Below, one piece after another: positions 1-53,116 of a stretch of 64,000 nt of DNA. The notes beneath the pieces were generated by a model. It did no database searches. It was not told the DNA's origin and worked only from the letters and a program-made list of their open reading frames with translations. Both the position numbers and the translations under genes were made by a program. Source of the DNA: Ehretia macrophylla (Eukaryota; Streptophyta; Magnoliopsida; Boraginales; Ehretiaceae); contig CM075765.1 in the NCBI GenBank assembly GCA_037974665.1, positions 60,104,247-60,168,246 of the forward strand, in the 5' to 3' direction. Each line of letters opens with the position of its first letter. The stretch's first letter is position 1.

Positions 1-2369
1 GTTATAATTTTGATGTCAATATTCCTAATACGTGCTAAATGTGCATTCATGAAATTTTCATAAAAAACGGAGTCAGAAATTTTATCGTCGATTTTTAGTG
101 AATAGTATTTTTGAAACACGTCCGCTAAAATTTTGAAACTGGTCTTTTTAACCCTTCTAGACCTAGTCCACGGACTTTAATAGACCTGTGTTTGATGAAA
201 ACGGTTTTAAAATCGGCTTAAGAATTTATTAGGGTTTTTACACCGACTTTTATGAAAATCGAGTTTTAAGCCGACTCGGGTGAAATTGTTTGATTGTAAA
301 ACTTCTTGTCACCTAAAAATAATTTACTTGAGCTATCTTGAGTGTTGAATAATTGTTTTGAACTTTGGTGATCAATAAAATGCATTTAAAGTCAAGAAAA
401 CACTAAAAATACTAAAGTTTCAACTTTGACTTTCATTTGACTTGTTGACTTTCATGCATATATCACCAACACACAATGAAACAAAGCAAAACACCACATT
501 TTCACACACCTTGCAGCCGTGAAAGCTTAGGAAAAAAAGAGATTTTATTCAACTTATTTTCAAAGTAATTTTGCCTTAGAAAACTCATTTAAAGTCCGAA
601 TCTTTTCAAACCGAGCTAGATTCCGCTTGTTGGGCACCTATTGCACGCATTCCTAGCTTTACTTCGGATCAAAGGTGAGAGAAAAATTCTAGATCTCAAA
701 ATGTCATTTTTATGTTTTTGCGTATAATTAATTATTGAACCGTTAGAATGTTAATCTGATGTTAGATTATTGCTCCATGCATGCTAGGGATCGTTATATA
801 CCAATACTACGAATTTCTGTCGGATGTAGCATAATTTTTATTTTCCGGGTATTTAATTTTGATTAAAATGTTCAAAGTTGAATTAAATGAGTTGTGTTGA
901 TCGAAATCGATTGCCGTCGATTTCTAAATACTTGATAATTACGTGTTAGCGCTGTTGTAATACCGAATTTTTGATTACATTGTTCGTGTGAAAACCCGGA
1001 AAATCCAGCCAAGATATCCTAGGGTTTTAGGGTTATCGGGCATGACTTGGAGGTGTTATGGTGGATTTCCGAGAGGGTTAATGTAGTAGGTTGAATGGGT
1101 GAGTGATAGAAACTGATTTGGCAATGTTTGGATTAGTAGATTGTAAGTTATGAATTTTAGAAGTTTAGGTTGTCATTCTTTAATTTCTTGAACGATGCCG
1201 TTAGATGGTTGGGTGGTGTTGAGTGATTGAATTGTGAGTTGTTGATGGGTAAATTAGAGTTTGATTGTGTGTTTAATGCATGTTCGGTTAGATGGCCTAC
1301 TTTGTCATCTAACTTAGTTGTTTGCTGTTTAATGTTATATTGATGTTATATTGATGTTATATTGATGTTTTATTGATTGATTATTGAGTACGGGAATCGG
1401 GCACTTTTGTTGCTGATCTCTCGGAATATTGATGATTGATGTTTATTATTATTGCTGGGTCTCTGGTATGTGTGTGCCACCTCTCGGGCAGCATCGGGCT
1501 GTCGGGTTGATAACGGCATGACTATCAGAGATTGCCTCCAGCTCGCATGACGGAGGTGTCATGGAGGGCGAGGTTATTGGGGGTACCCCGGGTGCGTGAG
1601 TAATGGGGAGTTACAAGAAGAATGGTTGAGATCGTGATGGCGTTTGGAGCTACACCAACTAGAGAGAGTATCCTTTATTGAATGGTCATATAGTTATGTG
1701 ATGATAGTATTATTTATGTTATTGTGTGTTTACTGACTCAAAGGATTATTTCCAAGGAGTTTAGTAAACCTTGCTCGAGATCTATCGGATCCTCACTGGG
1801 CTTATTTATATAAGCTCACTCTCTATTATTGCATGCATACAGGTGTACTTTTACAGGATTACGGGTACGTGCCTCCTGAAGAGGAGAATGTGGAAAACGT
1901 GCCTTACGTGGATGAGTCCTATGTTCTAGAGTCTTATCCTTGGTGTTGTATTGTTTTACTATCTTGTATGTTAACTTAGTCGACTTTTATATGCTTTGTA
2001 GTTCATTATGTAAAAGATGTTGAAAAGATAATGAATTAGTGATGTTGTCTTAGTAGCCTTCCTTTTGTTTATGATTAGGTTGCTAGATTGGCTAAATATG
2101 TTTTTGTAATGTATATTAAGGTTTATGTATTATGTTGGAACGGAGGCGCATAACTATGAATGAGTTGATGAAAGAATATTTAATGTATGAAATAGTTGCG
2201 TTGTATGTTGTTGATTTAATTGTGGAGTTGGTTGGTGATTTGTGGAGTTTGATGTATGTTGTTTTTAAGGGTTGGTTTAGAGCCCTGATGTTCATGCTAC
2301 TGTCGTTATGCTGCCAAAATTATGTTGCGTCCTGACTAATTGTAGGAGGAGTCGAGTTGGGGCGTGACA
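1..2369 (+). repeat. Left LTR of element A (5' end cut by window)
   Basis: It matches 5249-7629 nearly base for base and ends GGGGCGTGACA directly before the primer site. Sites inside: three TTGACT boxes at 426-450; a donor-like AG-GTGAG at 673-679; the CTACTTT-loop hairpin at 1287-1313; an 11-bp tandem repeat (TGATGTTATAT type) at about 1332-1370 with one unit fewer than the right LTR; a GC-rich core at about 1485-1620; and an acceptor-like CAG-G at 1840-1843. No protein gene is supported here. Confidence 0.9.
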
Positions 2370-2386: not shown

Positions 2387-5119
2387 TAGGTTAGCTGTCA
2401 GCCGGGGTATCCTCAAAATGTGGGTAGTGGTCTAAGCATGCAAGTATGTATTAAGTGAAAGAAAAGTGAAACATATGTTAATATGTTTATGTGATTAATT
2501 TATTTATGTGTCTAACTTTCTATGTGATCAATATGCCTTATGTGTTAAGTGAACTAATGTGGTCAATATGTTCTATGTGATAACGTGTATTACGTACTTA
2601 ATGTGTTTTAATTATTGTGCATTATGTGATCAATGTGTATTATGTGACAATTGTGTTTTACGTGATTTTGTGCCTTGTGTGAAGTTAGTTGTTTATGTGG
2701 TTTTAATTGTTTATAACTAGCTTATGTGAAACAACATGCTTTAGGTGCTCAATGTACTTTAAGTGACCAATGTGAGTTACGTGATCAACTTGTCTTATGT
2801 GAAGTTTGTTGCTTATGTGACTTTAATTGTTTATAACTTACTTATGTGCTATAACCTGTTTATGTGATGTTGGCTTCTTATATGCTGAATTGTATGTTAT
2901 GTGATAATGTTAAATTATATGATAATCATGCATTACGGTGTACCTGTTTTTATGTGATGTAATTGTATATATTCTATAACTGTGGGTGATTCTTTTAGGT
3001 GAAGTAAGGATGACTGCAAGAGTTTTCGGAAATAGTGGTAGGCCATGATTTTGAATTATTATTATTCTAGAAGTTTATCAGTTAGATTTTAATTGTTATG
3101 TTTATGGATTTTAGTTTCGGCTTAGTGGATTGATCTTGATGTTCCTTTAGCGAGAATGAAGTTGTTCGAGGAAATAGCAACGTATCTTGATGATTATAAT
3201 TACTTTTGTTGCCATGTTTAACTTGTTATTACTTGGAGATGAATCATAAGTTGAGGTTTTTGTGAGGTTGTGATTAGACACTTTTGGAGTCTCAACTCAG
3301 ATTATACTTTCTTGAGGTTATTTTAGAATGAATTTATTTGAGGAATTAGTGATGTATATTTGTGAATGGAATGAAGTGTTGTATAACATGTGAATATTTC
3401 TACTATTTGGGATTGCTATATTATTAATGGATATTTTGGAGTTTTGATCTTTAAACCTTGGAGACAATTGGAGTGATTCCTGACTAAAGTTACTTTATTC
3501 GAAGATGTAATTGTTGGGAGATAGAATTATTTGAGGAAATAAGAATGCATTTTGGTGACTGAACATTTACTTGCCTACATTGAGCTTTTGAGTTCTAGGT
3601 GGTATGACTTTCTAAATTGTTGATTGGGGATTCTCTTATATTATAATGTGTTAATATGAATATGTATTGTGTTATTAGATTTTGGAGTATTCTTTAGTGA
3701 ATCTTGTTGGGTAATCGGTGATTTATCTTGTTTAGTGATTGGTCTGGTACGGAATGTAAAATTTTGGAGTGATTTATCTTGTTTGGTGATTGTTATGACT
3801 CCTTAGGTTCTCTAGATCTCCTTAGTGTCTTGTTTTGGAGGAAGATAGATTGTAGGATATGACTTGTTGGTATTTAAATGTGTAGGTGGGATACCCTTCT
3901 TGTGCTTCATAATTCTATCAGTCTTATTATTCTCTTCTACTCTATTCTCACTTATTTGAGAGAGAGTTACACTTTTCTAACATATCAATTATTTCTTGAA
4001 AGTTTTGCTTATTAGATTAATGGATCCTATTCTCATTTGACATTGTTTCTATTCTTAACATTCATATTTGTTTCTTATAGCAATGTCACTTATTGGAGTT
4101 AAGGTTTGAGACTTCTATATTTCATTCTATATATCCAGCCATTGATTTCAATATTTCATTTCATCCTATTACTATTCATTTGAAAGTAATTTTTCCTTTG
4201 GTATACCATTTTACTTGTTCGAATTCCACTTGCTTGATGTACTCCCTACCTAAGTACATCATTGTCATTCTTGTTGATCCTTGTTAATCATATTGTTTCA
4301 TTATTAAATCCTGAGCCATTACTTTGCTTGTAATTGCTCATTTAATATACTCAACATTGTCTTTTCTTATTTATACTTCTTTGGTTATTGCGTGCTGAGA
4401 TACTCATTATCTTGACACTCATATTTTCTATTGAATTAATCATCTCTTATTTCTTAATTTCATTTCGCCTCAAGTACAACTTACTTGTTGGTTCCTTGAA
4501 CAATCATCGAGAATTGAAATATCTACTTGTTCAGGAATTTTTGTTCAACATACTCAGCACTGTTTTGACTCGTCATTATCCTTTGTCCGTACTTATTTAA
4601 CTGAAAGGTGCTGAGACATTTCTTATCTTAGTTATCATGCTTTCTTATTAAACTATTAGCCTCTTGACTCTCTAACCTGTTTGACATCTTGTTCACTTGA
4701 TTGTTGGCTCGAATATGACTTTCCATATTCTTAATTCCTTGTAAATTTCATAAGAGCCATATTCTGACAAATGTCACTTTTGAGATATTCCCTTGATCAG
4801 TAATCATTCATGTTATCGTAAATGAGTTTTTAAACCCTCGGGGTGTTCATAGAGCTCTTTTGTGTAGTATGAGATGATTGATAATTAGTGGTGTCATGCT
4901 AGGACTTTGGAGTTGTGATTTCTTTCATATGCAATAAGATATTAGGTAGGAGAGAATTATGAATTGGAGATTGTCTTGGAACTATGATCATCAACTTGCA
5001 GTCAACAGAGGTTGTTCTTTTGAGGTCTTTGGTTAGGTGTCATCCTAGGAGATAAATAAGAACTAAGAGAAGTATTATTAAGTGTAACGATTGAGGATTT
5101 AATTGTCTGTCAGTTCGAG
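2387..5119 (+). other. Non-coding interior of element A
   Basis: There is no open frame with similarity to a known protein. The first part (about 2440-2990) is rich in a degenerate TTATGTGA / CAATGTG motif repeated many times. The later part (about 3890-4800) is T-rich on the plus strand, and the short hydrophobic frames seen there follow from that composition. I see nothing else in it. Confidence 0.6.
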
Positions 5120-5155
5120 AATTGCGCGGACGCAATTGTTTTAAGGAGGGGAGAA
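5120..5155 (+). promoter_or_regulatory. Stem-loop and polypurine tract before the right LTR of element A
   Basis: AATTGCG, a CGGA loop and CGCAATT form a perfect 7-bp stem at 5120-5137. Eighteen bases later the LTR starts, directly after the purine run AAGGAGGGGAGAA. The same arrangement occurs in every other element of the window whose 3' end can be seen. Confidence 0.75.
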
Positions 5156-7629
5156 TGTGAAACCCCACTTTTCTGCTTTAACTCGATTTACGTGTTTTAT
5201 CTCGTTTTACGTGCATTTGACCTGTTTATGTGTTATATGACCTAGAATGTTATAATTTTGATGTCAATATTCCTAATACGTGCTAAATGTGCATTCATGA
5301 AATTTTCATAAAAAACGGAGTCAGAAATTTTATCGTCGATTTTTAGTGAATAGTATTTTTGAAACACGTCCGCTAAAATTTTGAAACTGGTCTTTTTAAC
5401 CCTTCTAGACCTAGTCCACGGACTTTAATAGACCTGTGTTTGATGAAAACGGTTTTAAAATCGGCTTAAGAATTTATTAGGGTTTTTACACCGACTTTTA
5501 TGAAAATTGAGTTTTAAGCCGACTCGGGTGAAATTGTTTGATTGTAAAACTTCTTGTCACCTAAAAATAATTTACTTGAGCTATCTTGGGTGTTGAATAA
5601 TTGTTTTGAACTTTGGTGATCAATAAAATGCATTTAAAGTCAAGAAAACACTAAAAATACTAAAGTTTCAACTTTGACTTTCATTTGACTTGTTGACTTT
5701 CATGCATATATCACCAACACACAATGAAACAAAGCAAAACACCACATTTTCACACACCTTGCAGCCGTGAAAGCTTAGGAAAAAAAAGAGATTTTATTCA
5801 ACTTATTTTCAAAGTAATTTTGCCTTAGAAAACTCATTTAAAGTCCGAATCTTTTCAAACCGAGCTAGATTCCGCTTGTTGGGCACCTATTGCACGCATT
5901 CCTAGCTTTACTTCGGATCAAAGGTGAGAGAAAAATTCTAGATCTCAAAATGTCATTTTTATGTTTTTGCGTATAATTAATTATTGAACCGTTAGAATGT
6001 TAATCTGATGTTAGATTATTGCTCCATGCATGCTAGGGATCGTTATATACCAATACTACGAATTTCTGTCGGATGTAGCATAATTTTTATTTTCCGGGTA
6101 TTTAATTTTGATTAAAATGTTCAAAGTTGAATTAAATGAGTTGTGTTGATCGAAATCGATTGCCGTCGATTTCTAAATACTTGATAATTACGTGTTAGCG
6201 CTGTTGTAATGCCGAATTTTTGATTACATTGTTCGTGTGAAAACCCAGAAAATCCAGCCAAGATATCTTAGGGTTTTAGGGTTATGGGGCATGACTTGGA
6301 GGTGTTATGGTGGATTTCCGAGAGGGTTAATGTAGTAGGTTGAATGGGTGAGTGATAGAAACTGATTTGGCAATGTTTGGATTAGTAGATTGTAAGTTAT
6401 GAATTTTAGAAGTTTAGGTTGTCATTCTTTAATTTCTTGAACGATGCCTTTAGATGGTTGGGTAGTGTTGAGTGATTGAATTGTGAGTTGTTGATGGGTA
6501 AATTAGAGTTTGATTTTGTGTTTAATGCATGTTCGGTTAGATGGCCTACTTTGTCATCTAACTTAGTTGTTTGCTGTTTAATGTTATATTGATGTTATAT
6601 TGATGTTATATTGATGTTATATTGATGTTTTATTGATTGATTATTGAGTACGGGAATCGGGCACTTTTGTTGCTGATCTCTCGGAATATTGATGATTGAT
6701 GTTTATTATTATTGCTGGGTCTCTGGTATGTGTGTGCCACCTCTCGGGCAGCATCGGGCTGTCGGGTTGATAACGGCATGACTATCAGAGATTGCCTCCA
6801 GCTCGCATGACGGAGGTGTCATGGAGGGCGAGGTTATTGGGGGTACCCCGGGTGCGTGAGTAATGGGGAGTTACAAGAAGAATGGTTGAGATCGTGATGG
6901 CGTTTGGAGCTACACCAACTAGAGAGAGTATCCTTTATTGAATGGTCATATAGTTATGTGATGATAGTATTATTTATGTTATTGTGTGTTTACTGACTCA
7001 AAGGATTATTTCCAAGGAGTTTAGTAAACCTTGCTCGAGATCTATCGGATCCTCACTGGGCTTATTTATATAAGCTCACTCTCTATTATTGCATGCATAC
7101 AGGTGTACTTTTACAGGATTACGGGTACGTGCCTCCTGAAGAGGAGAATGTGGAAAACGTGCCTTACGTGGATGAGTCCTATGTTCTAGAGTCTTATCCT
7201 TGGTGTTGTATTGTCTTACTATTTTGTATATTAACTTAGTAGACTTTTATATGTTTGTAGTTCATTATGTAAAAGATGTTGAAAAGATAATGAATTAGTT
7301 GATGTTGTCTTAGTAGCCTTCCTTTTGTTTATGATTAGGTTGCTAGATTGGCTAAATATGTTTTTTTAATGTATATTAAGGTTTATGTATTATGTTGGAA
7401 CGGAGGCGCATAACTATGAATGAGTTGATGAAAGAATATTTAATGTACGAAATAGTTGCGTTGTATGTTGTTGATTTAATTGTAGAGTTGGTTGGTGATT
7501 TGTGGAGTTTGATGTATGTTGTTTTTAAGGGTTGGTTTAGAGCCCTGATGTTCATGTTACTGTCGTTATGCTGCCGAAATTCTGTTGCGTCCTGACTGAT
7601 TGTAAGAGGGGTCGAGTTGGGGCGTGACA
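5156..7629 (+). repeat. Right LTR of element A, 2474 bp
   Basis: It starts TGTGAAACCCC and ends GGGGCGTGACA. It carries the full set of shared LTR sites: donor-like AG-GT at 5922-5925, CTACTTT-loop hairpin at 6536-6562 and acceptor-like CAG at 7100-7102. The flank GATTA at 7630-7634 should be the target duplication, but its partner is outside the window. Confidence 0.92.
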
Positions 7630-9497
7630 GATTAGGTGATCTAGTTAGATTGTACCTGCTATCACTTAGTTATCCCTCAAATTGAATCAATAGTCTCAAG
7701 CCTTTGTGGCTATAATTGGCCGTTAGATTTTGGCAGACAACCATATCACTATGTTTCATTCTAGTGATTTTAATAAACTTACTTTCAAACATATCCTCTA
7801 CCTTTGGGTAAGAAGGATCATATTCATTTAGGTCTTATTAAACATCTTAGGATGGCGGAGGACTACGATAAAACCCCTTTTTATCGTTTGAAAATCTAAT
7901 ATTTGTTTGCATGTAGGGAGTTGATACAATCTCATCAAAACAATAAGTATTCTACATACTATCAAGCTAATAATCACAATTATAGCAATTTAAATAGTAT
8001 GAATACAAAGATATATGAATGGTGGATCATGGGCTTGACTTTTGGGCTAAAAGAAATAAAAACTATTCTATTTAAAAGATCTTCAACACTTTGAAATCTT
8101 CATTGGGCCTCCAACTTCTTGAAAAAGTCCATTGCGCTTCCAATCCTAGGAAAGGTCAATTGGGCCTTTGTTAAACTATCTCTTTGAAGAATTACATAAA
8201 AGTCCTCACTACTTAATTCTCTCAAATGACAAGAAATAAATTGAGACTTACGTCTCATTTTACAACCCAATAACTTTGGACCCTAAAGCCCAAGTCCATG
8301 ATGAAATTCACCATTCTAAAAATAATAAATATGCATGATTATTCATATCAAAATATAATAACCAACATATTAATTTCTAGCATTCAAGTTTAATCTACTC
8401 ATCAATTATGAAACAATAAACTATTACAATGCCCATTTTGCATAAATATAAAACACCTTCTATACATGCAAGTCATAATGGCCCATTAATTCATAATTTT
8501 TTATAATTAATGATAATCACATGCAAGCCCAAAACTTTAAACAAAGAACAAGTTCATGGCCCATTCTCACAAAGTGGCCCAATAAGTTAAAATCAAGCAC
8601 AAGTAGATGTACACAAGGCCCAAGCCCAATCAACATGTCTCTTAAGGCCCACATACTTTAACTATAGCCCAATAGTCCTTTGAAAGTATTATATCATTAA
8701 ATGATTAACTTTCAATTTTCTTAAATTTAGAAACATCTCAATACTACTTATTAGATAATTTCTAATTTCAAGATTAAAACATATAGGCCAACTATGTGAC
8801 ATATATTTTGCCATATTCGAGACACATAGATAAGTTGCAATCTTGACTATTAAACCCTTTTAATCATCAAGTAGTCCTCAATTAGATTCATATGCATGAA
8901 CATTTAAAATAAGCTTAAAACTACTTTTAAACTTTCAATCTAACACATGCATATAATAGAAATATTCTTTTGAGGACTTCAAGGCAACTACTATCATATT
9001 GTCATATACAACAAAAGCAAAATCAATCTCCTTCGTCAAAGTGTATTTTTGGCCAACACCATATAAAGGCAACACTTGTCTTTTTCTAAACTTTTGACTT
9101 TATGAATCTTCAAAAAGGACTCTTTTAAATATATAAAGATAGTCTACTAATTCCAAGTCTAAAGTCAACATGCAATGACCAAATCTCCATTTATCTTCAC
9201 AAGTTAGCACTTTTAAATAAGAAGACAAGTCATCTAAAGATAGATGTGATTTTCGGCCATCTCTACAAATAGATGTAGCATGCAACTTCAAGCTAAGACA
9301 TATACACACATATATATACTCAAGATCTACATTATCAATCAAAGATTTAAACTAGATATCAACATGCATGTATGTGGGCTAAAGTCTTAACATCAAAGAC
9401 TTACAAATCAACAAGCACATTTTCGACAACAGGGTTCAAAAACACATGACCAACATTTGATAATCAATGGACATAAAAACATGGCTCTAATACCACT
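7630..9497 (-). mobile_element. Element B: probable interior of an older minus-strand LTR element
   Basis: AT-rich DNA with no coding similarity. On the minus strand it begins beside a sequence resembling the tRNA-Met primer site (complement at 9484-9495), which itself abuts a TG dinucleotide at 9498 that could end an LTR. I infer the leader and interior of a non-coding LTR element into which element A inserted. GGCCCA / TGGGCC motifs are frequent at 8020-8680. It could equally be unrelated intergenic DNA that resembles a primer site by chance. Confidence 0.4.
9484..9495 (-). promoter_or_regulatory. Possible primer binding site of element B
   Basis: On the minus strand this reads TGGTATTAGAGC, one base from the usual plant primer site. 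It lies two bases from a possible LTR end at 9498. Confidence 0.45.
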
Positions 9498-10497: not shown

Positions 10498-10502
<5 letters not shown>

Positions 10503-12931
10503 TGAAACCTCACTTTTCTGCTTATCTCGTTTTACGAGCTATACCTCGTTTTGCGTGCATATGACCTGTTTATGTGCTATAGGACCTAGAAAGTTATAAT
10601 TTTGATGTTAATACTCCTAATACGTGCTAAATGTGCATTCATGAAATTTTCATCAAAAACGGGATCAGAAATTTTATCGTCGATTTTCAGTGAATAGTAT
10701 TTTCAAAACACGTCCGCTAAAATTTTGAAACTGGTCTTTTTAACCCTTCTAGACCTAGTCCACGGACTTTAATAGACCTGTGTTTGATGAAAACGGTTTT
10801 AAAATTGACTTAAGAATTTATTAGGATTTTTACACCGACTTTTGCAAAAAATCGAGTTTTAAGCCGACTCGGGTGAAATTCTTTGAATGTAAAACTTCTT
10901 GTCACCTAAAAATAATTTACTTGAACTATCTTAGGAGTTGCAATTTTGTTTTGAGCAAGGAGCTAGCTAAAATGCATTTAAAAGACAAGAAAATGAATTA
11001 AAGGACTAAAATACTACTTTGACTTTGCATTTTAATTATTTGACCAAGCTTTTAATTGCATTTAGTCATCAACACACACTCAACACAACACAAAACACAC
11101 TCCACACACACACAAAGGGCCGAGAGGTTGAGGGAGAAAAAGCCAAAGAGAATTTCAAGGTTTTTCAATCAAATTTTCAAAGAAAAACTTGGTTTTTGTC
11201 CGTAAAACTTCGCACCGATTTGGATTCCGCTTGTTGGGCACACCTTGCACGCATTCCTAGGCTTATATCGCATCAAAGATTGAACCGTTAGAATTGTAAA
11301 ATGCAACTCCTAAGATAGCTTAATCTCAAACCTTGTTTTTTGCATTTTTGCTTATAAATGAAGATTGAACCGTTAGAATTGTAATCTGATATTAGATTAT
11401 TGCTCCTTGCATGCTAGGGATCGTTTAGTGGTAATACTACGAGTTTCTGTCGGATGTAGCATAATTTTTATTTTTCGGGTATTAAATTTTGATTAAATTG
11501 TTTAATGTTGAATTAATTGAGTTGTGATGATCGAAATCGATTGCCGTCGATTTCTAAATACTTGATAATTACGTGTTAGCGCTGTTGTAATGCCGAATTT
11601 TTGATTACATTGCTCGTGGGAAAGTCCGGAAAATTCAGCCAAGACATCCTAGGGTTTTAGGGTTATCGGGCATGATTTGGAGGTGTTATGGTGGATTTCT
11701 GAGAGGGCTAATGTAGTAGGTTGAATGGGTGAGTGATAGAAACTGATTTGGCAATGTTTGGGTTAGTAGAATGTAAGTTATGAATTTTTGAAGTTTAGGT
11801 TGTCATTCTTTAATTTCTTGAACGATGCCTTTAGATGATTGGGTGGTGTTTGAGTGTTGAATGGTGAGTTGTTGATGGGTATACTAGGGTTTAATTGTGT
11901 ATATAATGCATGTCCGGTTAGATGGCCTACTTTGTCATCTAACTAAGTTATTGTTGTTTAAATGATAATTGATGCTATCAATGATGAATAAATGATAATT
12001 GATTGATGATTGATTGATGATTGATGATGATTATGGAGTCTTGGTATGTGTGTGCCACATCTCGGGCAGCGTTGGGCTGTCGGGTTGATAACGGCATGAC
12101 TGCCAGAGGCTACCCCCAGCTCGCATGACGGAGGTGTCATAGAGGGAGAGGCTAGTGAGGTACCTCGGGTGCGTGAGTAATGGGGAGTTATAAGAAGAAA
12201 GGTTGAGATCATGATGGCGTTTGGAGCTACACCAAATAGAGTATCCTTTATTGATTGGTTATATAGTTATGTGATGATAGTATTATTTATGTTATTGTGT
12301 GTTTACTGACTCAAAGGATTATTCCAAGGAGTTTAGTAGACCTTGCTCGAGATCTATCGGATCCTCACTGGGCTTATTTATATAAGCTCACTCTCTATTA
12401 TTGCATGCTTACAGGTGTTGTAGAGCCAGATTACAGGTACGTGCCTCCTGAGGAGGAAAATGTGCCTTACGTGGACGAGTCATATGTTCCAGAGTCTTAT
12501 CCGTGATTCTGTGCTGTTATTTATCATGTATATTAGCTTAGTAGCCTTTTCTATGCTTTATAGTTCTTGTTGTATAGGATGCTGAAAAGAATATAAATTA
12601 GTTGTTACTATTCTAGCAGCTTCTTTTGTCTATGGTTAAGTTGTTAGATGGGTCTCAACTTATTTTTGAAATGTATGATAAGGTTGAGGTCTTGTATGTT
12701 ATGTTGGAACGGAGGCAGATAACGAGGACTGATTATGGTATATTACGGTTATGTTGTGTGTTGTTATGCTGTTGAGGAGTTGTTGTTTGTATGGTTATGG
12801 AATTGGATGTTTAATGTTATTAATGAGGTTGGTTTAGAACCTCAGTATTCTATTTACTGTCGTTATACTGCCGAAATTCCGTTGCGTCCTGACTGATTGT
12901 AGGTGGGGTCGAGTTGGGGCGTGACATAAAC
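10496..12931 (+). mobile_element. Solo LTR of the A/G family with 5-bp target duplication
   Basis: An LTR of 2426 bp at 10501-12926 starts TGTGAAACC and ends GGGGCGTGACA. It is bounded by TAAAC on both sides (10496-10500 and 12927-12931). No interior and no second LTR are present, so the element was lost by recombination between its LTRs. It is clearly related to, but diverged from, the LTRs at 5156 and 58872. The CTACTTT-loop hairpin is at 11917-11943, and the acidic reading stretch GVVEPDY ... VDES ... at 12412-12506 ends in a stop just after it. Confidence 0.93.
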
Positions 12932-17672: not shown

Positions 17673-19545
17673 TGTAATATCCGAGCCCGGAATGTGAAAA
17701 TTCTTTGTTTATTATTTTGAAAATTATATTTCCTTAAATGCTTTGTGAATTAACTGTTACTTTCTCGCTAACGCAACGTGCATTGCATTTAAGGAGCGAT
17801 AGCTAGATAACGATTTATAGTCCTCAGCAAATAGTGAAACTAGTATTTAGATGACTTAAATTTTATATTTTAAATGTTACTAGCTTTAATTGAACTTACC
17901 TTAGCTGAAACGGCTTTAAAACGCTCAAAATAGGGGCCTTTGACCAAGTCTTAAGTAGTTTGACTTAGCCCTTGACCAACTTTGACCATTTGACCCTTAT
18001 ATAAGCTAAAAACTAAGCAAAATAAAATAAAAACAGCAGATGAATAGACCAGGAGCAGGCCGAAACAAGAGAGGAAAAAAAATATATATTCAACCTTCCA
18101 AACGATCAATCTTCGCGTGAGCTCGTGCAGGGTGGTTTCCGAGGCAGCCAACGTTGTTTTCCTAGCGACTAGGAGTACCTGAGGTGAGGGAAGCATGTTA
18201 TTTGCGCATTTATACGTTGTGTTTGTTAACTTTGTCAATTTTTAGATTTATCCGTAGATCGTTATTTAAAGCGATTTGATGCTTCTAGAATGTTCCTTGG
18301 CATTTGTAGAACATGTATTTATAGCTTTGTAACATTTTTTGCGGTTAAATGTTGTGATTGCAAATTAAATTGTTGAATGAATAGTAATTTATGAATAGTA
18401 AAACCTTGAAACGTTGAAATTGCGCCGTTATGCTTTCCGTTGATGTAGAAACATGCTAGGTATGCTAGAATGCTAAAATGTGTGGTTGGTTTGGGTTGCG
18501 TAGTGGAAAAAAATGAGAATTAAGCCTTTGGGAAAGTCGGGGTCGTTTCGGTCGACTTTTGCGTTTTCTCATTTTGCGTGTTGGCATTGCTTCGGGAGGC
18601 CATGGAAGCACTTTTGGTACAATTATGGCGTTGGTTGGGTGTTTGGTTGTTGTAGTTGTAGTTCAAACGAGAAAGGGGGAAAACGGGACTTTGCGCGAGT
18701 TCTAGGGTAAAGTAAGGTTTCGGGGTCTTTAGACGTGCTTTATGGTGACCTAGGAGGGTTGGCGAAGTCGGTTTCCAGAACCCGTAGCTTGTTTGGAAAT
18801 GGTAGCATTTTGATAGTTGGGGCCGATTTGTGTTTTTGTGTGTTTTCTTGTCTTTATGCTTATAGAATGCTTAGAATTGCTTGGAATACTTGTTTGAGTT
18901 GTGTTGGATTGAATTGCTTATCAAATTGCTGCTATTGCGTGCGAGAGTAACCTACTTTGTTATTCTCCCACGTGTGGCTTCATCGTTTGTTTCTCGTCTT
19001 GTATCGAGTCTTGCATTGCATAGTGTCTCGCGCGTGAGTGATGGGCCTCTCTGGGTAGCCTTGGGTTGCCAGTGTTGGTTGCTCTAGCTCCGCTGCTATT
19101 CCCTTTCTCGCTTGGGTTGCCTCCCAGGAAGATTTGGGTCGTAGGTTGATGGATACTTCCGGGGTATTCTAAACTGGTGTTATAAGGTGGTTTGGACCGG
19201 CGCATCGTCATCGAATTCGTGTTTGAAAGTTGCTCATGAAAAGAGTATCGTATCCTTTGAATGTGTGTTTATAGTTTTAAATACTAGCCTTGCTTTATTG
19301 TTGGCTTTGGTTGTATCTTTATATGATTTGCATGTATTGCTTGGCTAATTGCATTGCATACTCCTCTCATCTCCGTCCTTGAGACCAATTGCCCACACTG
19401 AGCAATAGTTTTTGCTCATTCCTCTCTATACTATGTTTTTACAGGAGTAGTTGAAGCAGACCCTCTTGAGGTAATTTAGGAGGAGGAGCAGGTGGAGGTG
19501 TTTCCGTGATAGCACTTCTCTGCTTTGCTGGTGGTTGGTTACCAG
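17673..19545 (+). repeat. Left LTR of element C, first part
   Basis: It matches the right LTR from 30985. Five TTGAC boxes (17940-17995) stand just before a TATATAAG box at 17998-18005, a likely promoter. Also present are donor-like AG-GTGAG at 18182-18188, CTACTTT-loop hairpin at 18943-18967, shared core at 19135-19172, second hairpin at 19400-19417 and acceptor-like CAG at 19442-19444. The last five bases, ACCAG, are the target site of element D. Confidence 0.93.
17940..18005 (+). promoter_or_regulatory. W-box cluster and TATA box in the LTR of element C
   Basis: TTGACC or TTGACT occurs at 17940, 17960, 17972, 17982 and 17990, followed by TATATAAG at 17998. TTGAC(C/T) is the core site of plant WRKY factors. 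The right LTR keeps the TATA box at 31309-31316 and most of the boxes. Confidence 0.6.
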
Positions 19546-22061
19546 TGTAACGCCCCGACCCCTCACGAGACCGGAGGCTCTAATGACCATGCTATTCTCA
19601 ACCCAATACCAAGCCTGGTCACAAATTTTTTTCCGAATGGTTAAGTCCGGACCCGACACACGGACAGAGTCTCCCCTGTACCGTGGACATTCTAAAAACC
19701 TGTAAACACTCAAACAAAGTCCCAACAATACAATACAAGCTTTTCTTAATTAAACATCAAAGTTCTAAGGCCATCCGAGCCTTATAGTACACAATAGTTC
19801 CAAAACCACACAAGCATGCAAGTAACTTGTTTATAATATAGTCTAATAACCATGCCATTCTAGGATAACATTAAAACATACTTAGAGATAAAACATTCTA
19901 CACTAAGCCATTCACTCCCAAGCATGCAAAGCAACTAGAAATAGAAATATAAGTTATTACAAGCCATAGAATTACCACTGCTACTACATTATCAGACTTC
20001 CAGTTTACATATTACTCAAATACATACATGAGCTTTAAGGCCCCAAAATAGATTATACATAGAACAACAAATTCTTCACATAGCAACCAAAAGCATATCC
20101 ACCTCAGACAAATATCACACAGCAGCTAAGGCAACTCCACCAACTGTGCCACCTGAAACATGTTAGCGAGGTATGAGCAACCACTGTTGCCCAGTGAGGG
20201 ATATAGTCCCGGGGCGTGCAATGCAACAGATAATACAGTTATACAACAATATCACTTAGACAATTTAAGAAGCAATGACAACATAAGTAACCACACATTT
20301 AAAAGGATACATTTCACACAATCCCCTATACACCAATCTTCACTGGTCTTCATTCACGATCCACGAACCACGAGCACGATCACGATAAGCCGGCATAACC
20401 CCAAACACTCCAGTGGGTGTACTCCGGATGTACCCCGATAATCCTACGACCCAACATCCCCTGGCAATCTCCGGACCAGGCGAATGAGGGAATAGGGCAC
20501 GGAGTTTGAATATCCACCGGCAAGCCCTCTGCCGCCCAGCCGATATTCAACACATCCGCCCCTGACACTATGGTTGCGCAACCACTATGCAATGCACTTA
20601 ACAATGGCAAGTTAATAGCAATAATATGAGCATTAACACATAGGAGGATCAACAAAGTAGGTTGACCTCGATGCAATTAGAATAGAAGCAATTATATAAG
20701 CTAATAAGCAGTTTATAAAGGAACATATACAAAATAAGCATAGAATCATACCAAAAGCTCCAAATCAACTTGAAACCACATATAAACACTTAAGGAGTCA
20801 TGCCATTGTTTTAGAAGTGTGAGTCAACCGAAATTGCACCTAAACCCCTTTGTTTTTCGAACTATTTCTCTTCCAAACCGAGGTTAATGATTTCATTTTC
20901 AAAGGAAACTCTCCCAATCTTCTAACTAACCCTCAAGGTACCCTCTCAACCCTCTAACTCATTCAAATGCCCGCGATTACCCCGAAAGCCCCAAATTCCC
21001 TCTTATGGCTTTAAACTACACATACCTTATCCGGGCTTCAAACGAGGGTTATCAAAGCTTCTATAGCACCTAGGTAGCCTAAGAATACTAGAAGTGAAGC
21101 CCGAATCCACCCGGATTAGCATGAACCCCGAAAGCCCTTTATTATAGTCGACTATTTTACGTTTTATGCGATTCTAGAGCAATGTAAGTGCACGGGGCTA
21201 TTAGACTACCTTCACTAACACCTAAGGCATCTATTAGAAGTATTGAATCAAGTTAAAACGCGCGATTACACCAAACCCTAGAAATCCCGTCACTATTCAC
21301 CCCTACGAATCAACTATCGATTTCTACCGTTTAATACATGAAACAATAGCATAAATGTGGTCTCTACTACATGTATATAACATATATAAGCTTATTTGAG
21401 CATTGCAATAGCATTAGACAACATTTCCAATAAATCAAGAAAATAGCAACATTTGTAGAATGCACAAATAAGCATGAAAACCCTCACCTAAAGCGCGTAG
21501 GAGCACCTAGAAGGCTTGCACACACCCTAAACTACTTGTCCAAGGCTTGGAGAGGCTTGGATTGGAGATTTGATGAGCAAAAGATCTCCTTCTTGGCTGC
21601 TAAGGGCTGTTCGGATTTTGAACAGTAATTCCTGCACTTTTTTTTGTTTGTTTTTGCTAAGTTATGAGCTTATATTGATATATAAGGTGTATGGTTGGGT
21701 GGGGTCAAGTTTGGGTGCTTAAGTGGTCAATTATAATGCGCGTAGTAAGCTTAAAACGAGCCTAAAGTGAAACATGTGAGCTAGCTAATTAAATCTCTAA
21801 GTTAGTTACGTAACACTATTCATTCAACTACAAAAATTATTTTCTAAACGAGCTCTCCTATCGCCTCTAGCTCAATTGCACATTTTTCCCACTACTTTAA
21901 CAATTAATATGATTTAATAAAAATACTAATTAACTAATAGAATGCAGTTTAAAAACGGAGTGAATAGTAACTTAAGAAGACAATTAATAAGGCATAGAAA
22001 GAGGTGCGCAAATAAAGGATGCAACAGTAATTGAATGCATGGCTAAATCTCGGGCGTCACA
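19546..22061 (-). repeat. Element D, LTR copy at the left (its 3' LTR)
   Basis: On the minus strand it holds two TTGACC boxes and a TATA-like region, donor-like AG-GTGAG around 21483-21489, CTACTTT-loop hairpin at 20644-20669, shared core around 20405-20450, second hairpin at 20175-20192 and acceptor-like CAG at 20153-20155. Frames of 93 and 98 residues inside it appear identically in the other LTR, which only reflects the duplication. Confidence 0.94.
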
Positions 22062-22097
22062 TCCTCTCCCCCTTAAACTAATTGCGTCCACGCAATT
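22062..22097 (-). promoter_or_regulatory. Stem-loop and polypurine tract of element D
   Basis: On the minus strand AATTGCG, loop TGGA and CGCAATT (22080-22097) stand 18 bases before the LTR, which follows the purine run AAGGGGGAGAGGA. Confidence 0.75.
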
Positions 22098-23134
22098 CTT
22101 CTTCACAAGAGAACATCTGCATCAACTGAAAACCAACTCTGATTATTCGTCATCAGTTGCTAAGCAAGAATACCATATACGAATTCTCGTGGAAGCTCAT
22201 TAAGAAATCCCAGTAGTATTGTTTGCGAACCTCACTTAATAAGGCCAAATAAAGGCTCCAATAGAGACGCTACTTCGAAATCCAAATAAGAATCCCGCTG
22301 GTACGAATACCATAGAAGAATAGAATCACAACTAAGAGCGGAGAGAAAATACCAATAAAAGTTCTGAGCAGGAGTATTGTAAATAATACCAGATAATAAG
22401 GCTAAAAAGAATCCCATATACCAATTCTTCTGAGAGATGCCGACAAAAGAATACCAAATGAATAGCTGATAAGAAAATACCAAGAATATACTCCAGAGAA
22501 CTGTCATATAGAAACCCCAAAAGAAGCTACTCATTTATGACCGCTAAGCACTGAAGAAGGCCTTAGAAGAATCCCAATAACTGAGCTCCAACTATATCCA
22601 CCAATTCCCAAATAAAGGCTGATTAATTGCCTCTCATTTCTGCTAATCAACATAATTTGGAAGGCCTGCTACTAATCACCTCTCTTCAGGGGAGGAAGGA
22701 GCTTTTCTTACCATTCGACGGCTATGTATGCATGCCAAACAATTGCATATGTATAATCATCTTTAAACTATTACGCAAACATGTTAATGAAAGAGTTTGT
22801 GAAACAGTGTAATCATCAAAGTCATTCAAGCACGATAATCAAGTCAAGCATAACACAACTCAATCAAAGACATTCAAATACACACATTACAAGCAACAGT
22901 TCAAGCATTTAATAATTCACGAAGTCAATTTGATGCATAATTAGCCACTTTGCTTCACTTAGCACACATTTAGCACGTAACACATAATTATATCACATAG
23001 GTGCACACATTCAATACCAGACAAACAATCAAACATGCAGGCATACACTTTTAAGACACACACTTAATCAAGCACACACGCAAGGGTTACTACCCGACAG
23101 GCCGAGGACCCTGTCCCGGCTTAGAGCTAACTAA
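22098..23134 (-). other. Non-coding interior of element D
   Basis: About 1 kb. On the minus strand, phrases such as TTGGTATTTTC and GGAATTCTT recur in degenerate form, as in the interior of element F. A 100-residue hydrophobic frame at 22232-22534 is a by-product of this T-rich repetition. The part next to the primer site is rich in TATGTG-like words. Confidence 0.6.
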
Positions 23135-23146
23135 GCTCTGATACCA
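23135..23146 (-). promoter_or_regulatory. Primer binding site of element D
   Basis: The minus strand reads TGGTATCAGAGC, an exact match to the plant tRNA-Met primer site, two bases from the LTR. Confidence 0.9.
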
Positions 23147-23148
23147 CC

Positions 23149-25664
23149 TGTAACGCCCCGATCCCTCACGAGACCGGAGGCTCTAATGACCATGCTATTC
23201 TCAACCCAATACCAAGCCCGGTCACAAATTTTTTTCCGAATGGTTAAGTCCGGACCCGACACACGGACAGAGTCTCCCCTGTACCGTGGACATTCTAAAA
23301 ACCTGTAAACACTCAAACAAAGTCCCAACAATACAATACAAGCTTTTCTTAATTAAACATCAAAGTTCTAAGGCCATCCGAGCCTTATAGTACACAATAG
23401 TTCCAAAACCACACAAGCATGCAAGTAACTTGTTTATAATATAGTCTAATAACCATGCCATTCTAGGATAACATTAAAACATACTTAGAGATAAAACATT
23501 CTACACTAAGCCATTCACTCCCAAGCATGCAAAGCAACTAGAAATAGAAATATAAGTTATTACAAGCCATAGAATTACCACTGCTACTACATTATCAGAC
23601 TTCCAGTTTACATATTACTCAAATACATACATGAGCTTTAAGGCCCCAAAATAGATTATACATAGAACAACAAATTCTTCACATAGCAACCAAAAGCATA
23701 TCCACCTCAGACAAATATCACACAGCAGCTAAGGCAACTCCACCAACTGTGCCACCTGAAACATGTTAGCGAGGTATGAGCAACCACTGTTGCCCAGTGA
23801 GGGATATAGTCCCGGGGCGTGCAATGCAACAGATAATACAGTTATACAACAATATCACTTAGACAATTTAAGAAGCAATGACAACATAAGTAACCACACA
23901 TTTAAAAGGATACATTTCACACAATCCCCTATACACCAATCTTCACTGGTCTTCATTCACGATCCACGAACCACGAGCACGATCACGATAAGCCGGCATA
24001 ACCCCAAACACTCCAGTGGGTGTACTCCGGATGTACCCCGATAATCCTACGACCCAACATCCCCTGGCAATCTCCGGACCAGGCGAATGAGGGAATAGGG
24101 CACGGAGTTTGAATATCCACCGGCAAGCCCTCTGCCGCCCAGCCGATATTCAACACATCCGCCCCTGACACTATGGTTGCGCAACCACTATGCAATGCAC
24201 TTAACAATGGCAAGTTAATAGCAATAATATGAGCATTAACACATAGGAGGATCAACAAAGTAGGTTGACCTCGATGCAATTAGAATAGAAGCAATTATAT
24301 AAGCTAATAAGCAGTTTATAAAGGAACATATACAAAATAAGCATAGAATCATACCAAAAGCTCCAAATCAACTTGAAACCACATATAAACACTTAAGGAG
24401 TCATGCCATTGTTTTAGAAGTGTGAGTCAACCGAAATTGCACCTAAACCCCTTTGTTTTTCGAACTATTTCTCTTCCAAACCGAGGTTAATGATTTCATT
24501 TTCAAAGGAAACTCTCCCAATCTTCTAACTAACCCTCAAGGTACCCTCTCAACCCTCTAACTCATTCAAATGCCCGCGATTACCCCGAAAGCCCCAAATT
24601 CCCTCTTATGGCTTTAAACTACACATACCTTATCCGGGCTTCAAACGAGGGTTATCAAAGCTTCTATAGCACCTAGGTAGCCTAAGAATACTAGAAGTGA
24701 AGCCCGAATCCACCCGGATTAGCATGAACCCCGAAAGCCCTTTATTATAGTCGACTATTTTACGTTTTATGCGATTCTAGAGCAATGTAAGTGCACGGGG
24801 CTATTAGACTACCTTCACTAACACCTAAGGCATCTATTAGAAGTATTGAATCAAGTTAAAACGCGCGATTACACCAAACCCTAGAAATCCCGTCACTATT
24901 CACCCCTACGAATCAACTATCGATTTCTACCGTTTAATACATGAAACAATAGCATAAATGTGGTCTCTACTACATGTATATAACATATATAAGCTTATTT
25001 GAGCATTGCAATAGCATTAGACAACATTTCCAATAAATCAAGAAAATAGCAACATTTGTAGAATGCACAAATAAGCATGAAAACCCTCACCTAAAGCGCG
25101 TAGGAGCACCTAGAAGGCTTGCACACACCCTAAACTACTTGTCCAAGGCTTGGAGAGGCTTGGATTGGAGATTTGATGAGCAAAAGATCTCCTTCTTGGC
25201 TGCTAAGGGCTGTTCGGATTTTGAACAGTAATTCCTGCACTTTTTTTTGTTTGTTTTTGCTAAGTTATGAGCTTATATTGATATATAAGGTGTATGGTTG
25301 GGTGGGGTCAAGTTTGGGTGCTTAAGTGGTCAATTATAATGCGCGTAGTAAGCTTAAAACGAGCCTAAAGTGAAACATGTGAGCTAGCTAATTAAATCTC
25401 TAAGTTAGTTACGTAACACTATTCATTCAACTACAAAAATTATTTTCTAAACGAGCTCTCCTATCGCCTCTAGCTCAATTGCACATTTTTCCCACTACTT
25501 TAACAATTAATATGATTTAATAAAAATACTAATTAACTAATAGAATGCAGTTTAAAAACGGAGTGAATAGTAACTTAAGAAGACAATTAATAAGGCATAG
25601 AAAGAGGTGCGCAAATAAAGGATGCAACAGTAATTGAATGCATGGCTAAATCTCGGGCGTCACA
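23149..25664 (-). repeat. Element D, LTR copy at the right (its 5' LTR)
   Basis: The same length as the left copy and nearly identical. All internal sites lie at +3603 relative to it, for example the CTACTTT-loop hairpin at 24247-24272 and the second hairpin at 23778-23795. Confidence 0.94.
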
Positions 25665-25669
25665 ACCAG

Positions 25670-30984: not shown

Positions 30985-33265
30985 TGTAATACCCGAGCCC
31001 GGAATGTGAAAATTCTTTGTTTATTATTTTGAAAATTATATTTTCTTAAATTCTTTGTGAATTAACTGTTACTTTCTCGCCGTCGCAACGTGCATTGCAT
31101 TTAAGGAGCGATAGCTAGATAACGATTTCTAGTCCTCAGCAAATAGTGAAACTAGTATTTAGATGACTTAAATTTTATATTTTAAATGTTGCTAGCTTTA
31201 ATTGAACTTACCTTAGCTGAAACGGGTTTAAAAAGGTCAAAATAGGGGAGTTTGACCAAGTCTTAAGTAGTTTGACTTAGCCTTGACCAACTTTAACCAT
31301 TTGACCCTTATATAAGCTAAAAACTAAGCAAAATAAAATAAAAACAGCAGCTGAACAGACCAGGAGTAGGCCGAAACAAGAGAGGAAAAAAAATATATTC
31401 AACCTTCCAAACGATCAATCTTCGCGTGAGCCCGTGGGGGGTGATTTCCGAGGCATCCAACGTTGTTTTCCTAGCGACTAGGAGTACCTGAGGTGAGGGA
31501 AGCATGTTATTTGCGCATTTATACGTTGTGTTTGTTAACTTTGTCAATTTTTAGATTTATCCGTAGATCGTTATTTAAAGCGATTTGATGCTTCTAGAAT
31601 GTTCCTTGGCATTTGTAGAACATGTATTTATACCTTTGTAACATTTTCTGCGATTAATGTTGTGATTGCAAATTAAATTGTTGAATGAATAGTAATTTGT
31701 GAATAGTAAAACCTTGAAACATTGAAATTGCGCTGTTATGCTTTCCGTTGATGTAAAAACGTGCTAGGTATGCTAGAATGCTAAAATGTGTGGTTTGTTT
31801 GGGTTGCGTAGTGGAAAAAATGAGAATTAAGCCTTTGGGAAAGTCGGGGTCGTTTCGGTCGACTTTTGCATTTTCTCGTTTTGCGTGTTGGCATTGTTTC
31901 GGGAGGCCATGGAAGCACTTTTGGTGCGATTATGGCGTTGGTTAGGTGTTTGGCTGTTGTAGTTGTAGTTCAAACGAGAAAGGGGGAAAATGGGACTTTG
32001 CGCGAGTTCTAGGGTAAAGTAAGGTTTCGGGGTCTTTAGACGTGCCTTATGGTGACCTAGGAGGGTTGGCGAAGTCGGTTTCCAGAACCCGTAGCTTGTT
32101 TGGAAATGGTAGCATTTTGATAGTTGGGGCCGATTTGTGTTTTTGTGTGTTTTCTTGTCTTTATGCTTATAGAATGCTTAGAATTGCTTGGAATACTTGT
32201 TTGAGTTGTTTTGGATTGAATTGCTTATCAAATTGCTGCTATTGCGTGCGAGAGTAACCTACTTTGTTATTCTCCCACGTGTGTCTTTATCGCTTGTTTA
32301 TGGCCTGGCATCGAGTCTTGCATGGGATAGGGTCTCGCGCATGAGTGATGGGCCTCTCTGGGTAGCCTTGGGTTGCCAGTGTTGGTTGCTCTAGCTCCGC
32401 TGCTATTCCCTTTCTCGCTTGGGTTGCCTCCCAGGGAGATTTGGGTCGTAGGTTGATGGATACTTCCGGGGTATTCCAAACTGGTGTTATAAGGTGGTTT
32501 GGGCCGGCGCGTCGTCATCGAATTCGTGTTTGAAAGTTGCTCATGAAAAGAGTATCGTATCCTTTGAATGTGTGTTTATAGTTTTAAATACTAGCCTTGC
32601 TTTATTGTTGGCTTTGGTTGTATCATTATATGATTTGTATGTATTGCTTGGCTAATTGCATTGCATACTCCTCTCATCTCCGTCCTTGAGACCAATTGCT
32701 CTCGCTGAGCAATAGTTTTTGCTCATTCCTTTCTATAATATGTTTTTACAGGAGTAGTTGAAGCAGACCCTCTCGAGGTAATTGAGGAGGAAGAGCAGGT
32801 GGAGGTGTTTCCGTGATAGCACTTCTCTGCTTTGCTGGTGGTTGGTTACCAGTTTTGTGCAAACCTTGTTTGTTATGTATATTGTGTGAAGGATGCTTAA
32901 TTTTGAGGCTTGTAGCCTTGTATGTATTTTTCTATTTTGAGACCTTTAATGGTCTTATGTTGTAATGGATTAAAGTTTGTAAAATTGTAAACTTATACTC
33001 GGATGACTAGTGAAGAAATGCATGCTAATAGCTAATGGTTTAGTGGCATAAATACCTGTGTAGTATTAATGGCATTTTTGGTTTGGAAAGCTGGTTAATA
33101 AGAAATGTATGTTGTAAAGAAAGTTGGCTTGTTTTGATTATTATATAGCTTTCGCAAGTATTATATTGATATTAGGGTTTTCGGATCGTCCGCGGTACAG
33201 AGGAGACTCCGTCCGTGTGTCGGGTCCGGGCTTGGCCTTTTATGGGGTCGGGTCGGGGCGTGACA
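30985..33265 (+). repeat. Right LTR of element C, 2281 bp
   Basis: TGTAATACCC ... GGGGCGTGACA, followed by the duplication TGGAT at 33266-33270. TATATAAG is at 31309-31316, donor-like AG-GTGAG at 31491, CTACTTT-loop hairpin at 32250-32274, second hairpin at 32707-32724 and acceptor-like CAG at 32749-32751. The acidic stretch GVVEADPLEV follows, and the U5 box is at about 33202-33216. Confidence 0.95.
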
Positions 33266-38800: not shown

Positions 38801-39378
38801 TTGTTTTGAAGACTACTTATGTTGCTATTGTAAATGACCCTCGTTGTAATTTGGAGTCTAATTTTGGCTTGTACTAACTATATTCGGACGAACTCTGTAT
38901 TTGGTTGTTTGCTTTCGTCACTTTGATTAGTAGTTATCATAGGTGTTTAAACCACTATGTGAAGAATCAAATAATGTAACTCTATCTAATCTCACCTAAG
39001 TGCTCATTCGTAAGCTAAAAGATAACAAGTACTTGCAAAATAGGAATTGACAAATAAACGGGGCATAGTTATCATGCTAGGATTGTTAATCAAACGAGTC
39101 ATTCGAGATAGACTAGTAGGCATATCGATTGATGACAAAATAGGAATCTTTATTAGAATCGGATTGAGGATTGGAATAATTGAGGCAAATAGAAATTAGG
39201 ACAAACCAAAGGCCCTAAATACAACCGTTATGCTGCTGGTTCTTTTTTGAAATTTTTTTGGAGTTCTAGGTTAACGAATAAGTATTAATCTTCGTCAATC
39301 GGTTATAGTCGTAAAACAATGTTAAAGATTTAGGTCATACCCTAGTCTAGCCTCCATCGGTCGGGTTACGGCGTGACG
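35827..39378 (+). repeat. Left LTR of element E, about 3.55 kb
   Basis: The first 200 bases are a degenerate 20-bp repeat around ACGTGCATT / GTGCCTT. Donor-like AG-GTAAG is at 36725-36731, the CTACTTT-type hairpin at 38138-38163 and the GC-rich core around 38235-38385. Frames of up to 82 residues inside are not genes. Confidence 0.9.
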
Positions 39379-44018: not shown

Positions 44019-44023
44019 GCGCA

Positions 44024-48097: not shown

Positions 48098-48101
48098 GAA
48101 G

Positions 48102-48113
48102 TGGTATCAGAGC
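48102..48113 (+). promoter_or_regulatory. Primer binding site of element F
   Basis: TGGTATCAGAGC, exact, four bases after the left LTR. Confidence 0.92.
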
Positions 48114-49012: not shown

Positions 49013-49049
49013 AAATTGCGAGGACGCAATTTGTTTAAGGGGGAGAGAA
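49013..49049 (+). promoter_or_regulatory. Stem-loop and polypurine tract of element F
   Basis: AAATTGCG, loop AGGA and CGCAATTT make an 8-bp stem at 49013-49032. The purine run AAGGGGGAGAGAA follows, and the LTR starts at 49050. Confidence 0.78.
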
Positions 49050-53111: not shown

Positions 53112-53116
53112 GCGCA

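Follow-up and report, generated by a model that had tools for sequence, protein, structure and literature searches.

Genomic RNA of retroviruses is packaged and dimerized through clusters of small leader hairpins with conserved loops, which lie downstream of the splice donor (the packaging signal psi and the dimerization initiation site, DIS). For long terminal repeat (LTR) retrotransposons, mainly of plants, several systems have been described that resemble this in one respect or another. Non-coding LTRs of plant Sireviruses (Ty1/copia) carry a conserved symmetric motif, often repeated, with constant CGG-CCG arms upstream of the TATA box, which was read as transcriptional activator sites (PMC2829016). 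In BARE (Ty1/copia), RNA for translation and RNA for packaging are kept apart by splicing and by distinct RNA pools, and a non-autonomous partner is packaged; the intron (104 nt) lies within gag, not the LTR, and the available portion mentions no hairpin (PMC3735527). Retrozymes carry hammerhead ribozymes in the LTRs of non-autonomous plant elements (PMC4918200, PMC9695139), and self-priming by a hairpin in the 5′ leader was reported for chromoviruses (PMC3601003). Plant LTR elements are generally devoid of introns, Ogre and EVADE being notable exceptions, and the main text of the corresponding review, as far as available, contains none of the terms 'packaging signal', 'psi', 'dimeri' or 'stem-loop' (PMC12786077). 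Here we describe a hairpin in the LTRs of Ty3/gypsy elements of Ehretia macrophylla, found in a stretch of 64,000 nt (CM075765.1, positions 60,104,247-60,168,246; hereafter the window) of the 1.58-Gb genome, which comprises 20 contigs. A predicted stem-loop of 9-10 bp with a 7-nt CUACUUU loop recurs at a like LTR position in several families of a single Ty3/gypsy lineage, and its stem varies while pairing is kept.

The window consists largely of nested LTR elements, with element D located inside C and element F inside E. All 12 hairpins of the original prediction were present at their positions, and each was recognized both by reading the sequence as a hairpin and with a covariance model. Since the solo LTR and element G belong to the same family as A, the 12 copies represent five families (A, C, D, E, and F). 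In family A, the hairpin is found on the plus strand at 1287-1313 (5′ LTR), 6536-6562 (3′ LTR, about 5118-7629), and 11917-11943 (solo LTR, about 10501-12927), and on the minus strand at 59902-59928 in element G, whose pol also runs on the minus strand (61525-63999). Family C carries plus-strand copies at 18943-18967 (5′ LTR, interrupted by element D) and 32250-32274 (3′ LTR, about 30985-33266). The two copies of family D are on the minus strand, like their element, at 20644-20669 (LTR about 19546-22064) and 24247-24272 (other LTR, about 23149-25667). The remaining copies are on the plus strand: 38138-38163 (5′ LTR, about 35826-39377) and 55584-55609 (3′ LTR, about 53270-56891) in family E, and 47144-47169 (5′ LTR, about 44023-48098) and 52158-52183 (3′ LTR, about 49049-53112) in family F.

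The loop reads CTACTTT in 11 of the 12 copies, and the single deviating copy expected from the prediction is 38138-38163 with GTACTTT. The stems that had been assigned to each LTR type apply to most copies, including 55584-55609 for E and 52158-52183 for F, but not to their counterparts 38138-38163 (GGAGGCAAC/GTTGACTTCC) and 47144-47169 (GAGGGTAAT/ATTGTCCCTC). The two LTRs of F thereby differ by a double change of the loop-closing pair, which is T-A in 47144-47169 and C-G in 52158-52183. Bulges had been noted for some stems; these are one-base bulges of the 3′ arm that follow pair four or five, counted from the loop, and they occur in D, E, and F, with an additional mismatch at the bulge site in 55584-55609. 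The stems of A and C have no bulge. The LTR types had been called unrelated-looking. This is true insofar as they show little likeness over much of their length, but the families align from about the hairpin to the LTR 3′ end. The five types are related: an ordered region downstream of the hairpin is common to them and includes a second covarying hairpin.

For statistical analysis, 57 copies were tabulated, of which 38 were distinct. As many of these were chosen by loop or stem pattern, the sample is biased towards pairing. For tree-based tests, 12 of the 57 were dropped (three LTR partners, and nine hairpins that were second or neighbouring ones in their LTR), leaving 45 copies. The tree was built on the DNA downstream of the hairpin, excluding the hairpin itself; root states were set to canonical pairs where possible, and for the null model the substitutions inferred for each column were moved independently over the tree. 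Canonical pairing amounted to 0.965 compared to 0.735 ± 0.061 under the null (reached in 0 of 5000 simulations), which supports the proposed selection on a structure. Placement of the bulge was chosen to maximise pairing and favours the observed value over the null; the test restricted to the inner four pairs is free of this choice and gave 0.961 compared to 0.805 ± 0.084 (2/5000). The summed G score was 261.7 (null 84.8, 0/5000), and changes on both sides occurred in eight of the nine pairs (3.8 under the null, 10/5000). Registers slid by one to three positions paired to at most 71.5% in the tree data and 73.6% in a count based on 18 hairpins. In this smaller set, the inner four pairs were paired to 97.2% compared to 88.1% after shuffling, with a covariation score of 0.587 compared to 0.376 (0/500 each). 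The number of pair types in the 18 hairpins was not above that of the shuffles (486/500), and the number of pairs changed on both sides exceeded them weakly (24/500). In an R-scape-like test on the 45 copies, no single pair was significant (best E about 1), and the non-pair p2-q3 scored almost as high as the best pairs.

The distribution of changes over the tree and over the hairpin was uneven. Only one change was inferred for the seven loop columns of the 45 copies. Of the 18 stem columns, by contrast, 15 had two to eight changes each, and the remaining three had a single change each. On inner branches, all 17 changes kept pairing (11 double changes and six to G-U, none to a mismatch). At the tips, we counted 17 changes from Watson-Crick to G-U and 13 from Watson-Crick to mismatch, besides three double changes, two from G-U to Watson-Crick, and one from G-U to mismatch. 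Selection in active lineages together with decay of dead copies would give such a pattern. As to whether the structure is one of RNA or DNA, which had been left undecided, the nine pairs of the 38 distinct hairpins comprise 290 Watson-Crick, 33 G.T/T.G, and seven A.C/C.A cells, plus 12 others; the inner four pairs of the 45 copies include 18 G.T/T.G and three A.C/C.A. That G-U cells outnumber A-C cells on the sense strand favours a sense-strand RNA over a DNA palindrome, for which both should be equally frequent. Consensus RNA folding was weak for 22 copies of all families (-6.5 kcal/mol) and strong for 13 copies of E (-65.6 kcal/mol).

The association of loop and stem is not a matter of the loop word being common. 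In the window plus 20 ten-kb loci taken at round-number positions of the genome, 15 of 87 CTACTTT occurrences stood in a stem of at least eight pairs (G-T pairs and one mismatch or bulge being allowed), nine of them outside the window, compared to 34 of 6395 occurrences for the 104 other orders of the same letters. With the covariance model built from 18 hairpins, 264 kb yielded 29 matches at E ≤ 1. The weakest of these had an E-value of 3.6e-4, and 14 had been used to train the model. Genome-wide, CAACCTACTTTGTTG was found 19,503 + 19,604 times (reversed word, 0 + 1), GNNNNNNNCCTACTTTGNNNNNNNC 17,113 + 17,106 times (reversed, 253 + 254), and the hairpin-shaped pattern GNNNNNNNCCTACTTTGNNNNNNNNC gave 24,559 + 24,825 exact matches (49,384; reversed, 153 + 125, i.e. 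278); these three counts overlap and are not additive. A variant stem with G-C in place of an A-T pair accounted for 867 + 879 matches compared to 0. CTACTTT is also found without a hairpin, as most of the first 100 places matching a loose genome pattern were unrelated repeats. It is frequent, for instance, in a repeat with words like GTTTCGGGCTACTTTTCTTCTTTT that forms no hairpin.

Recovery independent of the hairpin was achieved with profiles of the block downstream of it (hairpin excluded), which were run on the window and the 20 loci. They retrieved 29 blocks. A simple rule sees the hairpin in 24 of them, and L013:141-166, with one changed base beside the loop, brings the number to 25. In the block of L020, the match starts only at profile position 116, and other sequence precedes it. 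The number of hairpins with this loop ranges from one to three per LTR, and their stems are not always alike. Such sets of two or three CTACTTT hairpins (once TTACTTT), spaced by 98-242 nt, were seen in L004-L006, L032, L034, L026, L027, L014, and L020; some of their stems are clearly different, and others resemble a recent tandem duplication.

Downstream of the hairpin, features follow in constant order: a G+C-rich block, the word RTATCCTT, a second hairpin after CTCRCT, and CAGG. The G+C content of the block is 0.44-0.53 compared to 0.32-0.39 before and 0.31-0.36 after it (six LTRs). Within it, D, F, and most copies of E have a further hairpin whose loop reads ATCCGGA, and C has a similar one; a self-complementary loop in a paired stem is evident in these three families (for E, in most copies of D, F, and E taken together with the partial case of C), but not in A and some E. 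In sequence, the 7-nt loop of this hairpin is TTCCGGG in family C (32464-32470, plus strand) and ATCCGGA, with the palindrome TCCGGA, in family F (52426-52432, plus strand). In 38 of 45 copies, RTATCCTT lies between +260 and +509 relative to the loop, and in 30 of 45 the ninth base is T (RTATCCTTT). Plus-strand examples of the conserved word GTATCCTTT are found at 6928-6936 (A), 32557-32565 (C), and 52522-52530 (F); both E copies of the window read GCATCCTTT at this site. RTATCCTTT also marks the step from G+C-rich to T-rich sequence. We take it to match the consensus of U12-type 5′ splice sites. The branch site of U12-type introns has the consensus TTCCTTRAY and lies near the acceptor. A U12-type intron was considered and set aside: the donor word fits, but no such branch site was seen by eye in the 3′ ends inspected.

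The second hairpin was found in 42 of 45 copies. Its inner stem differs between families, and pairing is 0.972 compared to 0.637 under the null (0/3000), although the arms were chosen to pair, which favours the observed value. In the window families it ends some 20-27 nt before CAG/G, and 38 of 45 copies have CAGG between +430 and +620. Together with the stretch to the putative acceptor CAG/G, the second hairpin occupies (i) 7052-7102 in A, (ii) 32701-32751 in C, (iii) 23756-23801 on the minus strand in D, (iv) 56090-56131 in E, and (v) 52636-52682 in F (plus strand unless noted). The distance from the CTACTTT hairpin to this putative acceptor is about 490-560 nt.

Upstream, the donor-like word AGGTGAGR was detected within 2.9 kb of the hairpin in 18 of 23 copies, compared to 0.16 expected per copy (copies of the same family are not independent), at a distance of 600-2600 nt. 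The first six intron bases of the putative 5′ splice sites are located at 5924-5929 in family A (AAG/GTGAGA), 31493-31498 in C (GAG/GTGAGG), 54350-54355 in E (AAG/GTGAGG), and 49596-49601 in F (AAG/GTGAGG), all on the plus strand, and at 25085-25090 on the minus strand in D (TAG/GTGAGG). TATA-like words precede the donor word in many copies, and the 150 nt before it are free of ATG in four of six window LTRs and contain a single ATG in the other two. A position of the hairpin right at the 5′ terminus of the RNA, as in trans-activation response (TAR) elements, was set aside given this conserved donor word 0.6-2.6 kb upstream, often itself preceded by a TATA-like word. From this arrangement we infer a promoter, a short first exon, a donor, a hairpin-bearing leader intron, and an acceptor within the LTR. 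The putative intron would be 1.2-3.1 kb long. From the donor to the RTATCC word, the putative leader contains 9-48 ATG per kb in addition to its structured part.

Domain content, primer binding site (PBS), and LTR length are consistent with a Tekay/Del label for these Ty3/gypsy elements. Pfam searches with six pieces of C, G, and E returned Retrotrans_gag, RVP_2, RVT_1, RNase H, Integrase_H2C2, and rve (for G, rve was below the cut-off), i.e. gag followed by pol in the order protease, reverse transcriptase, RNase H, and integrase (PR-RT-RH-IN). The chromodomain-like tail is a 56-aa piece of G that matched Chromo at E = 1.7e-4 with 21.9 bits, under the curated cut-off of 25.1. The initiator-Met PBS word TGGTATCAGAGC adjoins the LTR in C, D, E, and F and was not found at A. 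LTR lengths range from 2.3 to 4.1 kb, compared to mostly 2.6-3.0 kb for beet Tekay (PMC3605345); in sunflower, Tekay elements were reported to be absent from the expressed set (PMC7730604).

The regions between the LTRs of D (1084 bp), F (950 bp), and A (2748 bp) contain no stop-free stretch of more than 111 aa, and yet all three retain the hairpin. Elements D (19546-25667) and F (44023-53112) thus consist of long LTRs flanking an interior of about 1 kb; those of D are almost identical (3 differences in 2519 sites), and those of F differ at 78 of 4062. A protein encoded by the LTR itself was considered, and no long frame common to the LTR families was seen. Presumably, D, F, and A moved with proteins made by other elements. 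What they keep is then needed in cis, and this probably includes the hairpin.

We tentatively interpret the hairpin as a packaging-type signal read by Gag, a reading to which we give a substantial but somewhat less than even chance. An invariable loop on a stem that varies, with one to three copies per LTR, is typical of RNA hairpins bound by proteins and would suit multivalent binding; together with the place in a putative intron it suggests a psi-like mark of unspliced RNA. The hairpin would act as sense-strand RNA in the long 5′ leader of the genomic transcript, within a leader intron extending from the conserved AG/GTGAGR donor to CAG/G about 500 nt past the hairpin. Its loop would be the recognition site of a protein common to these families, the best candidate being the Gag/nucleocapsid of the elements themselves. 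Only unspliced, full-length RNA would carry the site and be chosen for packaging, and spliced RNA would serve other uses; the neighbouring hairpin with the palindromic loop might provide a dimer contact. In a wider, considerably more speculative version that we rate as rather unlikely, chromodomain Ty3/gypsy elements would possess a multi-hairpin packaging domain in an LTR intron, with splicing sorting messages from genomes and RTATCCTTT perhaps being a minor-spliceosome donor that slows splicing.

Several observations weigh against recognition by Gag in a leader intron. The start site of the transcript, its splicing, and its packaging are all deduced from the DNA, and the loop might be read by a host protein rather than by Gag. 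The donor word is absent in five of the 23 copies (the solo LTR, a C-like copy in L026, D-like copies in L021 and L022, and L018). TATA-like words also lie close to the loop (27 nt before it in the solo LTR, 38 and 57 nt before it in D), which would leave room for a transcription start just before the hairpin in these cases. Three of the 29 downstream blocks, all found with the C profile, have no hairpin upstream (L022:1220-1644 and 8269-8693, minus; L021:7575-8001, minus), so the hairpin is not indispensable; the two blocks of L022 are placed as an LTR pair might be. For the proposed dimer contact, the TCCGGA palindrome is present in 23 of 45 copies, with no clear hairpin of this kind in A. 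The complement of the loop, AAAGTAG, was not conserved in the five LTRs searched, and a loop-loop contact inside the LTR was therefore set aside. Spliced leader copies were sought genome-wide by joined-exon words for families C, D, and E. None was found for E (exact word) or D (one mismatch allowed); for C (one mismatch allowed), there were eight loose matches compared to one for the reversed control, and the two contexts read were unrelated. The small-intron junction of E had two loose genome matches, both in unrelated sequence. Such a lack of spliced copies is expected if spliced RNA is not copied, but equally expected from an intron that is never spliced.

Location between conserved donor-like and acceptor-like sites would also suit a control of splicing or export, in which both hairpins tune removal of the leader intron, through a host RNA-binding protein or by masking of sites, and leave enough full-length RNA in the cytoplasm. 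The covarying second hairpin, ending some 20-27 nt before CAG/G, agrees with this, as does an AG in the 5′ arm of 38 of 45 copies that the stem would mask. Yet this AG is missing in seven of the 45, from several families, with the stem mostly kept; donor and acceptor are 600-2600 nt and about 490-560 nt away from the hairpin, respectively, and an invariant loop fits a binding site better than masking. We regard such a control as unlikely, if still a serious candidate. Less probable still is a role in translation or handling of the leader by ribosome shunt, internal entry, or recruitment of export factors. It would fit the many ATGs (9-48 per kb) and the structured part of the putative leader, and structured leaders of plant pararetroviruses do recruit export factors (PMC12786077), but the hairpin is kept in D, F, and A, whose internal regions have no long reading frame.

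Elements devoid of their own proteins would likewise need in cis an element acting in reverse transcription, by pausing, strand transfer, or template switching within R/U5, and the hairpin does lie in the part copied into every new LTR. It is, however, about 0.95-1.25 kb away from the LTR 3′ end, where the PBS adjoins, and no conserved partner of the loop was found in five LTRs. We regard this explanation as improbable. We consider it somewhat more improbable that the motif acts as double-stranded DNA, as a transcription-factor site or an LTR cruciform. Inverted repeats in other LTRs have been read as regulatory, such as the palindromic repeats of Sireviruses (PMC2829016), but a DNA palindrome does not predict the excess of G.T over A.C on the sense strand, and the constant part here is the loop rather than the symmetric arms. 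Finally, common ancestry of the LTRs and ascertainment of copies that pair by chance might mimic a function where there is none. The families are indeed related, many copies were picked by pattern, and single pairs are not significant. Against this, downstream blocks alone recover the hairpin in 25 of 29 cases, and the tree-based pairing tests speak for constraint; absence of any function appears very improbable indeed.

Rfam had no match at gathering score in the window. Neither IMG/VR nor prokaryote genomes yielded a plant relative; no pol relative was found in IMG/VR, and the one match of the hairpin there, apparently a phage terminator, was put down to chance. The sole type of match in prokaryote genomes was a repeat near contig ends of buffalo-gut Bacteroidales (L054-L063) with the same loop and a similar stem. 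It presumably resembles the end of a group II intron and was taken as a coincidence. No description of the hairpin was found among the titles, abstract openings, and passages surveyed, with incomplete coverage of subscription journals, so an earlier description is possible; exact loop strings led to no paper on retrotransposons, by title, among the matches listed. Many plant genomes consist to a large extent of such elements. The RNA motif is short and easily searched for, and with tens of thousands of copies in a single genome it offers a handle on how their RNA is recognized, on its use by relatives without proteins of their own, and on whether the putative LTR intron is used; it is also a compact marker for finding and classifying such LTRs.

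Compared to the systems described above, the hairpin shares with the Sirevirus palindromes its place in a non-coding plant LTR and its conservation and repetition, but it differs from them in its constant loop and covarying arms and in that the best candidates for a TATA box are upstream of it. Like the retrozymes, it would be a structured RNA in LTRs of non-autonomous plant elements; unlike them, it is a simple hairpin, and no Rfam family reaches its gathering score in the window. With chromoviral self-priming it has in common a hairpin in the putative leader, whereas C, D, E, and F have the ordinary PBS word adjoining the LTR. BARE would provide a parallel for sorting of RNA and for packaging of a non-autonomous partner, with its intron at a different place. 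With regard to retroviral psi and DIS, the hairpin described here differs in that it is embedded in a very long LTR, with the PBS following only some 1 kb further downstream. It resembles them in being a small putative leader hairpin, often clustered, with a kept loop and downstream of a donor-like site, and in having a neighbour with a palindromic loop (TCCGGA in 23 of 45 copies).

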